Shown here: in pieces, positions 61,191-63,903 of the stretch
Layout of the letters: each line of letters starts with the position of its first letter
Numbering within the stretch: the stretch's first letter is position 1
Assembly: GCF_016283395.1 (NCBI RefSeq)
Contig: NZ_JAEEMU010000035.1
Coordinates: forward strand, 62,001-126,000
Source: Ruminococcus sp.
GTDB taxonomy: Bacteria > Bacillota_A > Clostridia > Oscillospirales > Ruminococcaceae
DNA length: 64,000 bases
Reading direction: 5' to 3'
The notes under the pieces: generated by a model
The model's database searches: none
Told to the model about the DNA's origin: nothing
The model's input: only the letters and a program-made list of their open reading frames with translations
Translations under genes and position numbers: made by a program

Positions 61191-63299
61191 ATGATCAATA
61201 CATGGCCAAAGGAATGGGACGGCTTCAAAGAAGGCCGCTGGAGCACCACTTCCGTAAACGTTAGAGACTTCATCAAGAAGAACTACACTCCTTACGATGG
61301 CGACGAGAGCTTCCTCGCACCACCTACAGAGGCAACAAAAAAGCTCTGGGAGCAGGTCATGGATCTTTCCCGACAGGAAAGAGAAGCCGGAGGTGTTCTG
61401 GATATGGACACCAAGATCGTTTCCACAATTACATCACATAAAGCAGGATATCTCAACAAGGATCTTGAAAAGATAGTCGGTATCCAGACTGACAAGCCTT
61501 TCAAGCGTTCGTTGCAGCCTTTCGGCGGTATCCGTATGGCTCAGCAGGCTTGCAAGGAATACGGATACGAAGTAGATCCCGAGGTAGTTGAGATCTTCAC
61601 AAAGTACAGAAAGACTCACAATCAGGGGGTATTTGATGCATATACTCCCGAGATGAGACTGGCACGTCATTCCGCTATCCTCACAGGACTTCCCGATGCT
61701 TACGGCAGAGGTCGTATCATCGGCGATTACAGAAGAGTCGCACTCTACGGTATCGACCTCCTTATCGAGGACAAGAAGCACCAGATAGAGACATCGTTAG
61801 TGAGAATGACTTCCAAGAATATCCGTCTCCGCGAGGAGCTTTCCGAACAGGTACGTGCTCTCGGCGAACTCAAGGAGCTTGGCAAGATATACGGCTTCGA
61901 TATCTCAAGACCTGCATCAAATGCGCAGGAGGCTGTACAGTGGCTTTACTTCGGCTACCTTGCAGCAGTCAAGGAGCAGAACGGTGCAGCAATGTCTCTC
62001 GGACGTACTTCCACATTCCTTGACATCTATATACAGCGTGACCTTGAAAAAGGCATACTCACAGAGGAACAGGCACAGGAGCTCATCGACCACTTCATCA
62101 TGAAGCTCCGTATCGTCAAGTTCGCACGTACTCCTGAGTATAATTCACTTTTCTCAGGCGATCCTACATGGATAACGGAGTCTATCGGCGGCGTAAGCGT
62201 TGATGGTAACCACATGGTAACAAAGAACAGCTTCCGTTATCTCCACACTCTTGAAAACCTTGGAACAGCTCCTGAGCCGAACATGACTATTCTCTGGTCA
62301 ACAAAGCTGCCGAGAAAGTTCAAGGAATACTGCGCAAAAATGTCAATCAAGACATCATCTATACAGTACGAGAACGACGACATGATGCGTGTAATTCACG
62401 GCGACGACTACGCTATCGCCTGCTGCGTATCATCAATGGTAGTGGGCAAGGAAATGCAGTTCTTCGGCGCAAGAGCAAACCTTGCAAAGTGTCTGCTCTA
62501 CGCAATAAACGGCGGCGTGGACGAGCGTCTCGGACTCCAGGTAGGTCCTAAGTTCAGACCTGTTGACACTGAGTACCTCAACTTCGATGACGTATGGGAA
62601 AAGTACATGGATATGATGGAGTGGCTGGCAGGACTTTACGTCAACACCCTCAACGTTATCCACTATATGCACGACAAGTACAGCTATGAGAGACTGCAAA
62701 TGGCTCTCCACGACAGAGACGTTAAGCGTTACTTCGCAACAGGTATCGCAGGACTTTCAGTCGTTGCAGACTCGCTTTCGGCTATTAAGTACGCTAAAGT
62801 AAAGCCAATTCGCAAGGATATCGAAATAAAAGACAAGGCAGGCAATGTCACAAGCGTTGCAAAGAACGTTGTCGTTGACTACGAGATCGAGGGAGACTTC
62901 CCGAAATACGGCAATAATGACGACCGTGTAGACAAGCTTGCTGTTGAAGTAGTCCGCAGATTTATGGACTGTGTAAGAAAGCACCACACCTACCGTGACG
63001 GCGTACCTACAATGTCTATCCTCACAATCACATCAAACGTTGTATACGGCAAAAAGACCGGTAATACTCCTGACGGACGTAAACAGGGAGTGCCGCTTGC
63101 TCCGGGAGCTAACCCGATGCACGGAAGAGATACTCACGGTGCAGTAGCTTCACTTTCATCTGTTGCAAAGCTTCCGTTCAGACACGCACAGGACGGTATC
63201 TCCAATACCTTCTCCATAGTGCCAAATGCCCTCGGCAAGGATATGGAGGTATTCGCAGGAGAACTTGACCTTGATAAGCTCAGAGGAGAGGAAAAATGA
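61191..63299 (+). CDS. pflB: Pyruvate formate-lyase core subunit (lacks glycyl-radical domain)
   Basis: A 702-aa formate C-acetyltransferase making acetyl-CoA and formate from pyruvate and CoA. The catalytic cysteines are 411-412 in DDYAIACCVSSMVVGKEMQF, followed by FFGARANLAKCLLYAINGG and QVGPKFRPV. The N-terminus (WPKEWDGFKEGRWSTTSVNV) is typical. It stops after ISNTFSIVPNALGK plus a short tail, just where normal enzymes (about 750 aa) continue into the radical domain. That domain is encoded separately at 63664. RBS AAAAGGAG. Confidence 0.95.
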   Translation: MINTWPKEWDGFKEGRWSTTSVNVRDFIKKNYTPYDGDESFLAPPTEATKKLWEQVMDLSRQEREAGGVLDMDTKIVSTITSHKAGYLNKDLEKIVGIQTDKPFKRSLQPFGGIRMAQQACKEYGYEVDPEVVEIFTKYRKTHNQGVFDAYTPEMRLARHSAILTGLPDAYGRGRIIGDYRRVALYGIDLLIEDKKHQIETSLVRMTSKNIRLREELSEQVRALGELKELGKIYGFDISRPASNAQEAVQWLYFGYLAAVKEQNGAAMSLGRTSTFLDIYIQRDLEKGILTEEQAQELIDHFIMKLRIVKFARTPEYNSLFSGDPTWITESIGGVSVDGNHMVTKNSFRYLHTLENLGTAPEPNMTILWSTKLPRKFKEYCAKMSIKTSSIQYENDDMMRVIHGDDYAIACCVSSMVVGKEMQFFGARANLAKCLLYAINGGVDERLGLQVGPKFRPVDTEYLNFDDVWEKYMDMMEWLAGLYVNTLNVIHYMHDKYSYERLQMALHDRDVKRYFATGIAGLSVVADSLSAIKYAKVKPIRKDIEIKDKAGNVTSVAKNVVVDYEIEGDFPKYGNNDDRVDKLAVEVVRRFMDCVRKHHTYRDGVPTMSILTITSNVVYGKKTGNTPDGRKQGVPLAPGANPMHGRDTHGAVASLSSVAKLPFRHAQDGISNTFSIVPNALGKDMEVFAGELDLDKLRGEEK

Positions 63300-63514
63300 T
63301 AACTCCCGATATGCTTGGCAAGACCGATGATCCGTCAGAGCTTGCAGACCTTATTGATCAGCTCATGGAACAGGGCAGCGGTCATGTGAATATAGTCTCG
63401 GAAAACGGCTCGGAACTGAAAGTCAACACCGTAAAGAGTACCGACATATGCGGCACAAAGGGTGCTTGCTGTCAGCCCACCGAGAACGCCATTGACGAAG
63501 ACGACGAATATTGA
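63296..63514 (+). CDS. Small PFL-associated protein resembling a degenerate radical-domain start
   Basis: A 72-aa protein coupled to the core by a 4-base overlap (ATGA) and a GAGG site. MITPDMLGKTDDPSELADLI and DQLMEQGSGHVNI resemble the linker and first helix-strand of PFL radical domains (LGK..., LIELLDGYVEKGGHHLNV), but the RVSGYAVNF motif is missing. Instead it ends with Cys-containing STDICGTKGACCQP and an acidic tail. Function unknown; it may be a chaperone, regulator or spacer subunit of the split enzyme. Confidence 0.7.
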   Translation: MITPDMLGKTDDPSELADLIDQLMEQGSGHVNIVSENGSELKVNTVKSTDICGTKGACCQPTENAIDEDDEY

Positions 63515-63663
63515 TCAACTCATAATGCAGAATGCATAATTCATAATTATTGTGTCCCCTATCGGGGACAGATCGGAATAATATTTGAATATTTGAGTGA
63601 AAGCGAACTCCACAATTATGCATTATGAATTAAGAATTACGAATTAAAAAAAGGAGGATATAT
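63515..63663. repeat. Intergenic repeats and hairpin between PFL small genes
   Basis: Contains GCATAATTCATAATTATTGTG-type and CACAATTATGCATTATGAAT-type near-inverted repeats around the hairpin TGTCCCC/GGGGACA (63553-63570). AAAGGAGG starts the radical-domain gene. The hairpin could set subunit ratios. Confidence 0.6.
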
Positions 63664-63903
63664 ATGGATAACCAGAAACAGGTCGATAACCTCATTGAAT
63701 TACTTGACGGCTACGTTGAAAAGGGCGGACATCACCTCAATGTAAACGTTTTCACACGGGAAACACTCCTTGACGCTCAGGCTCACCCTGAGAAGTACCC
63801 ACAGCTCACCGTAAGAGTTTCGGGCTACGCAGTTAACTTCGTCAAGCTCACAAAGGAGCAGCAGGACGATGTTATTTCAAGAACTTTCCATTCTTCACTT
63901 TGA
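63664..63903 (+). CDS. Separate glycyl-radical subunit of pyruvate formate-lyase
   Basis: A 79-aa protein that is essentially the C-terminal PFL radical domain: NLIELLDGYVEKGGHHLNVN, RETLLDAQAHPEKYPQLTVR, RVSGYAVNFVKLT with the radical Gly at residue 54, and EQQDDVISRTFHSSL. It resembles stand-alone glycyl radical proteins (GrcA/YfiD), but begins exactly where the core ends. It has its own strong ribosome-binding site and start, so it is translated separately. It probably binds the core to form the active enzyme after activation by a radical SAM activase (not in the window). Confidence 0.95.
   Translation: MDNQKQVDNLIELLDGYVEKGGHHLNVNVFTRETLLDAQAHPEKYPQLTVRVSGYAVNFVKLTKEQQDDVISRTFHSSL

Follow-up and report, generated by a model that had tools for sequence, protein, structure and literature searches.

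A pyruvate formate-lyase of the Ruminococcus lineage split into a catalytic core and a separate glycyl-radical subunit, with a cysteine-bearing tail on the core or on a third protein

At the end of a 64,000-nucleotide stretch of Ruminococcus sp. DNA (contig NZ_JAEEMU010000035.1, positions 62,001 to 126,000; the whole stretch is hereafter called the window), three consecutive genes on the + strand encode a pyruvate formate-lyase (PFL) core, a 72-amino-acid (aa) protein whose gene we call the middle gene, and a separate glycyl-radical subunit, GrcA3 (Table 1). The window was assigned to the Ruminococcus flavefaciens group, in which strain YAD2003 of R. flavefaciens has the very same core (100% identity). 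R. flavefaciens makes formate, and PFL is a central fermentation enzyme, known from textbooks as a single-chain radical enzyme that is cut by oxygen at its glycine. In the window, the ATG of the middle gene overlaps the stop codon of the core (ATGA), and the start of grcA3 is preceded by AAAAAAAGGAGG.

A preliminary description of this DNA had proposed that the core, which carries the Cys411-Cys412 pair, ends after VPNALGK and ahead of the radical domain, and that the 79-aa gene, with Gly54 and its own start signal, encodes exactly the missing piece. Both proposals were borne out by profile searches. The PFL model TIGR01255 matched the core with 1114.2 bits (cut-off 994.2), covering only positions 1-666 of its 744; positions 667-744 are missing from the core and are present in the 79-aa protein, which matches positions 662-744. 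By alignment, the core is 66% identical to Escherichia coli PflB, and its Cys411-Cys412 aligns with the two E. coli cysteines; the E. coli chain is matched as far as residue 681. VPNALGK lies at core residue 677 and is followed by a 19-residue tail that contains no cysteine.

The 79-aa protein scored 167.1 bits against the GrcA3 model NF038360 (cut-off 158), as compared with 97.4 bits, under the cut-off of 170, against the E. coli-type GrcA/YfiD model TIGR04365. It carries the radical loop RVSGYAV(NF), in which Gly54 was invariant in 22/22 aligned rows. The GrcA3 profile covers residues 678-758 of the E. coli chain but matches YfiD only from the profile's own position 20 on, which indicates that GrcA3 possesses a helix ahead of GGHHLNVNV that is absent in YfiD. 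GrcA3 thus differs from YfiD both in having this helix (NLIELLDGY) and in lacking YfiD's disordered N-terminal half.

The same gene order was found in related genomes. Of 579 matches in the genome collection, the best 80 were taken as the nearest loci, and the order core, middle gene, grcA3 was present in 78 of them; of the exceptions, one locus (L010) has no middle gene and the other (L071) stops at a contig end. The grc gene of a further locus (L023) is cut by a contig end. We then classified 150 loci, made up of these 80, 10 from the family sample, and 40 and 20 from further searches; short or repeat fetches (L081-L084, L135-L190) were left out of the counts. This set comprised 101 three-gene loci, 25 two-gene loci (core and grc with no middle gene), 23 fused PFLs and one cut locus. 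Three duplicate pairs are included, and the 147 distinct loci comprise 99 three-gene, 25 two-gene, 22 fused and one cut. All 126 split cores terminate 15-40 residues past the motif P-x-A/S-LGK. The split is therefore kept across Ruminococcus and its relatives and is not peculiar to the window strain, and since its parts stay together throughout the genus, this looks like a normal working enzyme rather than a broken gene.

Purifying selection acts on each of the three genes. The ratio of nonsynonymous to synonymous substitution rates (dN/dS) was 0.029-0.039 for the core (8/8 pairs), 0.012-0.028 for GrcA3 (7/8 pairs, the other giving no dS) and 0.121-0.176 for the middle gene (6/8 pairs, the other two giving no dS).

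It could be argued that GrcA3 is a mere spare part as in E. coli, standing beside a recently broken pflB, with a full-length PFL elsewhere doing the work. The name of the NCBI family, autonomous cofactor, agrees with this idea, and our search for a full-length enzyme covered relatives rather than the window strain's own genome. In that search, which used TIGR01255 on 20 related genomes that carry a selection of the nearest loci (drafts for which completeness was not given, and which include R. flavefaciens YAD2003), no full-length PFL was found in any of the 20, only core and C-terminal pieces. Unlike E. coli, where GrcA/YfiD repairs a complete PFL, and unlike what the family name implies, GrcA3 here adjoins a PFL that has no radical domain, and no other source of the PFL radical was found in the searched genomes. 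The common end point of the split cores, the low dN/dS of the core and the helix absent in YfiD also speak against a recent breakage, so that the spare-part explanation is largely refuted for the relatives and, overall, very improbable. The earlier proposal that the native enzyme must assemble from a core and a radical subunit is thus well supported by model coverage, conservation and the lack of a full-length PFL in those relatives. One of the genomes, R. flavefaciens MA2007 (G006), has two PFL cores and two GrcA3 copies, of which the copy at L010 is without a middle gene.

Of 197 genomes sampled from the same family, 118 scored above the cut-off for PFL. For 33 of them the match ended at model position 663-677, and the others listed over the cut-off reach 741-744. 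Among the 33 short matches, one (G142) turned out to belong to a fused gene and one (G209) has an internal stop. The activating enzyme PflA was found above cut-off in 12/12 genomes searched. Its gene lies directly after grcA3 in three of them (G226, G289, G316), directly after the fused gene in another (G466) and about 1 kb from grcA3 in two (G015, G133); in five R. flavefaciens genomes (G001, G002, G003, G005, G006) it is about 150 kb away or on another contig, and in G142, too, it is far away or on another contig.

A further explanation would make one protein of the pieces by a frameshift, a sequencing error or programmed recoding. The preliminary description had already held that this is no simple frameshift, and reading frames uphold that statement. 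In the window, each of the three genes uses a frame of its own, and grc has a separate start with AAAGGAGG. Over the 126 split loci, the frame of grc relative to the core is distributed 45/44/37, which excludes a common frameshift or readthrough joining the two; the core and grc do share a frame in 44 of the 126 loci, about one third, as would be expected by chance. A ribosome-binding motif lies ahead of the grc start in most of the nearest loci examined, the automatically called start being wrong in a few (L044, L077). On the frames and on conservation, frameshift, recoding and sequencing error were rejected, and we regard this explanation as refuted to near certainty.

The gap between core and grcA3 had been described as containing another gene, a hairpin and repeats. 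All three are real, but the gene is no unrelated interruption, as set out below, and the hairpin and repeats form a dispersed element, resembling a miniature inverted-repeat transposable element (MITE), that is absent in other relatives. The element carries the GTCCCCTATCGGGGAC hairpin. Where the window has it, the gap between the middle gene and grcA3 is 25 nt in R. flavefaciens 007c and down to 2 in more distant relatives. The end motif of the repeat (at most two mismatches) gave 10, 14 (with two pairs overlapping), 0 and 4 matches in four R. flavefaciens genomes and none in two two-gene relatives, with controls of 0, 0, 0, 1, 0 and 0 over these six genomes. A role for the hairpin as a regulatory or recoding element was rejected, given that it is missing in close relatives and dispersed elsewhere.

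To place GrcA3 more widely, 295 genomes of the order were searched with its model. Twenty were over the cut-off, each by way of a short frame (81-152 aa), and the lower-scoring matches listed lay mostly in frames of about 740 aa or longer, although a few of these frames were shorter. In a search of 398 genomes from the phylum, no more than two exceeded the cut-off. Stand-alone GrcA3 proteins are numerous in the protein search, in which 7,998 candidates were scored; among the matches listed (the best 120) were proteins of Allofournierella, Blautia, Roseburia, Catonella and Ruthenibacterium. A separate 79-aa frame (G408:C82:13386-13610), with 120.5 bits and so under the GrcA3 cut-off, is possibly a different kind of separate radical domain.

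The middle protein matched no Pfam or NCBIfam family above cut-off. Its relation to GrcA3 was revealed by profile comparison: a profile of 32 middle-protein relatives aligned by hhalign with the GrcA3 profile over 28 columns (probability 83.7, P 8.1e-6). As a control, a hidden Markov model (HMM) of the middle protein was run on the 26,476 open frames of the loci and, at 12 bits or more, retrieved the 101 middle proteins, the N-terminal halves of 126/126 separate GrcA3 proteins, 3/23 fused PFLs and nothing else. These two results indicate that the middle protein has, as its first half, a paralogue of the part of the radical domain ahead of the glycine loop, namely a helix and a strand. The glycine loop itself is lacking, and the remainder consists of a cysteine motif and an acidic end. 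The only strictly invariant column is a cysteine, Cys58. A search of 5.8 billion proteins returned 492 relatives at E 0.01, and among the best 120 of these, those with an organism given are hypothetical proteins of Ruminococcus. A middle gene was called at 18 bits or more. We assign it to the split-PFL system as a third component without an earlier name.

The cysteine motif has a counterpart at the end of the core in loci that have no middle gene. In three-gene loci, the core tail contains a cysteine in 0/101 cases, and two or more cysteines lie near the end of the middle protein in 101/101. In two-gene loci, it is the C-terminal tail of the core that carries at least two cysteines (22/25), with C-x4-C spacing in 16/25 and a typical form of DCGNGACSSPTLFEGLD. 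The arm thus occurs on the core or on the middle protein, and on both together in 0 of the 126 split loci. Fused PFLs possess a cysteine pair (at least two cysteines) at the corresponding junction in 1/23 (L123). An HMM built from 17 two-gene core tails found, after the 17 self matches, 11 middle proteins and then a chance frame; its best 70 matches included 48 middle proteins and five others. As this tail model finds middle proteins and the first half of the latter matches GrcA3, the middle protein is best described as a chimera that combines the docking half of GrcA3 with the tail of the core, and the joining of such a tail to the core in two-gene relatives suggests that the middle protein works on the core.

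One tandem duplication of the tail together with the 5' half of grc would make the middle gene, or a deletion would bring about the reverse, and the tree leaves the direction unsettled. For the trees, a locus with a partial core (L206) was left out. Two fused PFLs, L209 (G466) and L210 (G441), were nested among split rows, and the test of a single split clade gave p 0.029. Neither the two-gene rows (15, with L098 left out; p 1.8e-4) nor the three-gene rows (p 3.9e-11) form one clade, indicating repeated gain or loss of the middle gene. The fused PFL with the cysteine pair (L123, in G142) has this pair in an enlarged linker, as if re-fused, and falls among the split PFLs, on a long branch and with unsure placement.

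Taken together, these data indicate a real, conserved and obligately split PFL in the Ruminococcus lineage, and the split into core and GrcA3 is well supported. The sequences show the split and its conservation, the chimeric composition of the middle protein and the alternative placement of the tail; docking of GrcA3 in trans, its exchange and a thiol function of the tail are what we infer from them. We consider it probable that the radical subunit would dock in trans and that a dithiol arm, borne by the core or by the radical-less mimic (the middle protein), would serve the active-site cysteines. The core would supply the barrel, the substrate sites and Cys411-Cys412, and GrcA3 the entire C-terminal radical domain (approximately E. 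coli 680-759). PflA would activate GrcA3 at Gly54, from where the radical would pass to the core cysteines. The middle protein would most likely occupy or attend the vacant radical-domain site and bring a redox thiol pair to the active-site cysteines. While GrcA3 is missing, damaged or in the course of replacement, this pair would keep or return them reduced, or quench a thiyl radical left stranded.

Precedents for the separate parts exist in known systems. In the E. coli study (PMC8683613), residues 61-127 of YfiD are described as sharing the fold of PFL 693-759, and an E. coli core cut at 695, combined with separate YfiD, is reported to reach wild-type activity once activated, so that a PFL can work with its radical piece supplied as a separate protein. 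The same study states that the cut core activates 32-fold less well with YfiD, that measurable binding is abolished, and that residues 696-733 are proposed as a recognition element. As in the repair of E. coli PflB by GrcA/YfiD (and T4 Y06I), a small glycyl-radical protein would complete a PFL core in trans and be activated by PflA; unlike in that system, the Ruminococcus core never bears a radical domain of its own, and a third protein and a cysteine tail are present. By analogy with YfiD, the earlier suggestion that GrcA3 could be swapped after oxygen damage is plausible.

The model for the arm is the C-terminal cysteine pair of ribonucleotide reductase (RNR), which serves the active site of that enzyme. 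The end of E. coli NrdA, DDGCESGACKI, resembles the cysteine tail in spacing and letters. PMC4520616 describes the NrdA pair as acting in active-site disulfide reduction, and the split class II RNR NrdJa/NrdJb of Pseudomonas aeruginosa as carrying redox cysteines on its small subunit. The tail's likeness to the NrdA end, together with this account, favours a thiol arm for the active-site cysteines. What is shared is a radical enzyme in two parts and, as judged from the sequences here, two cysteines on a C-terminal end that is free; the fold, the chemistry and the source of the radical differ, and homology of the small subunits is not claimed.

Several observations weigh against this reading. 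The AlphaFold2 (AF2) model of the middle protein, which shows a helix at 13-25 and a strand at 29-36 with low confidence, is weak (predicted local distance difference test, pLDDT, 59), and a structure search of the Protein Data Bank (PDB) with it returned nothing significant (best E 0.92). Some middle proteins are weak members of their family, e.g., those of L110 (19.8 bits) and L115 (27.8 bits) against the threshold of 18. Two lineages (L121, L124), and L010 at that locus, have neither a middle gene nor a cysteine tail, so the arm is not strictly required. Spacing of the tail cysteines varies: 5 or 6 residues lie between them in most middle proteins, 4 in 16 of the 25 two-gene tails, and CxCC occurs in others. 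Finally, the resemblance to NrdA extends over only six residues and could be convergence or chance, and the tail cysteines could instead bind a metal or a partner.

Two other accounts of the arm were considered. In the first, the cysteine tail acts as a radical safety valve or as a metal or persulfide site with no disulfide exchange, for example as a hydrogen-atom donor when GrcA3 leaves a thiyl radical behind. The tail does occur with enzymes whose radical subunit can leave, and 22 of the 23 sampled fused PFLs are without a junction cysteine pair; these, however, are the same data on which the thiol arm rests, and we judge this account unlikely. In the second, the split is real and the middle protein serves in loading or recognition: its strand keeps the groove for the radical domain open and makes the core recognizable to GrcA3 and PflA, in the way that E. 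coli PFL 696-733 would for YfiD, and its cysteines are structural or metal-binding. The homologous half of the middle protein corresponds to approximately E. coli 684-709 and overlaps the 696-733 element described in PMC8683613; the Ruminococcus core lacks that element, GrcA3 has its own helix, and the middle protein provides a second copy of helix and strand. What the two-gene relatives retain, however, is the cysteine tail and not the docking half, and it is a cysteine, Cys58, that is invariant in the middle protein. A loading factor is thus possible but rather doubtful.

Within the favoured thiol-arm reading, a more specific and distinctly more tentative version would make this a three-part PFL. 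The radical-less mimic would alternate with GrcA3 in the same site, plug the open active site, deliver a dithiol to protect the catalytic cysteines or reduce them again, and yield to fresh GrcA3. If this were true, thiol-relay arms would be general to split glycyl radical enzymes in two phyla and would have converged on the tail of ribonucleotide reductase.

The second phylum enters through solved structures. Among solved structures, the core is nearest in sequence to two formate acetyltransferase chains, PDB 38la (687 aa, 1133 bits) and 38lb (739 aa, 1121 bits). The GrcA3 profile matches neither, indicating that neither chain shows the radical domain. The Ruminococcus system differs from them in its middle protein, the profile of which gave only chance-level matches in the PDB (best E 0.045) and hence no homologue there. 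A database protein matching 38lb (P0121) has a cysteine-rich tail (CDMC...CAC); a tail pattern used to look for 38lb in 394 genomes gave no match. In a protein search with part of 38lb, the named matches included 695-697-aa formate acetyltransferases of Olsenella and Thermophilibacter (Atopobiaceae, Actinomycetota), e.g., P0124, P0125, P0152, P0168 and P0173, which end in forms like PDCGCC. Among the core-only PFLs related to 38lb, at least two tail cysteines were present in 120/120 of those listed (the best 120 of 7,994 scored). Given the family name of GrcA3 and the two PDB chains, the split as such is already known, in part at least. The titles and abstract openings listed in searches of the open-licence PMC literature gave no description of the split arrangement, the mimic or the cysteine tail.

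A separate radical piece as the rule turns an emergency repair into a normal design, in which oxygen would cost the cell 79 residues and not 760. It also offers a natural system in which to study how the radical domain docks and is exchanged, and the cysteine arm, borne by core or mimic and by both in none of the 126 split loci, allows a direct test of how the enzyme keeps its active-site thiols in order, a function of the arm that we infer. Annotation of these genes as a GrcA3 repair cofactor and a plain formate acetyltransferase overlooks that neither is complete alone.

Table 1. Features of the split PFL locus, with positions in the window
Feature	Position	Strand	Remarks
Promoter-like site	61123..61151	+	TTGACA-17-TAATAT, TG ahead of second hexamer; upstream of core; consensus scan
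PFL catalytic core, 702 aa	61191..63299	+	Stops ahead of glycyl-radical domain
Codons of active-site pair Cys411-Cys412	62421..62426	+	Invariant in two alignments
Core end, VPNALGK and 19-residue Cys-free tail	63219..63299	+	Position of the Cys tail in two-gene relatives
Middle gene, 72 aa	63296..63514	+	Putative docking-half mimic with Cys/acidic tail; start overlaps core stop
Middle protein residues 9-35	63320..63400	+	Profile-aligned with GrcA3 residues 3-30; predicted helix and strand; GSGHVNI resembles GGHHLNV
Middle protein Cys motif CGTKGACCQP (Cys52, Cys58, Cys59)	63449..63478	+	Sequence; Cys58 invariant in 53/53 rows
Dispersed inverted-repeat element, MITE-like	63517..63646	.	Between middle gene and grcA3; no part in the mechanism
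grcA3, separate glycyl-radical subunit, 79 aa	63664..63903	+	NCBIfam GrcA3 match
Radical glycine Gly54 codon (RVSGYAV)	63823..63825	+	Sequence, alignment
Perfect 15-bp inverted repeat (I4)	63910..63940	+	Second arm running into T's; candidate terminator

The inverted repeat after grcA3 is likely the terminator of the three-gene unit; our terminator scan, which required a loop of 3-8 bases, left it unlisted. The promoter consensus scan gave six sites in the stretch as compared with 4.6 expected, and the site upstream of the core is a sequence match only. Further upstream, at 59685-60908, lies a gene for a 407-aa membrane protein that by eye resembles an AI-2E-type transporter. On the - strand at 57713-59497, open reading frames of 345 and 245 aa resemble, also by eye, a PP2C-type phosphatase and a von Willebrand A domain protein.

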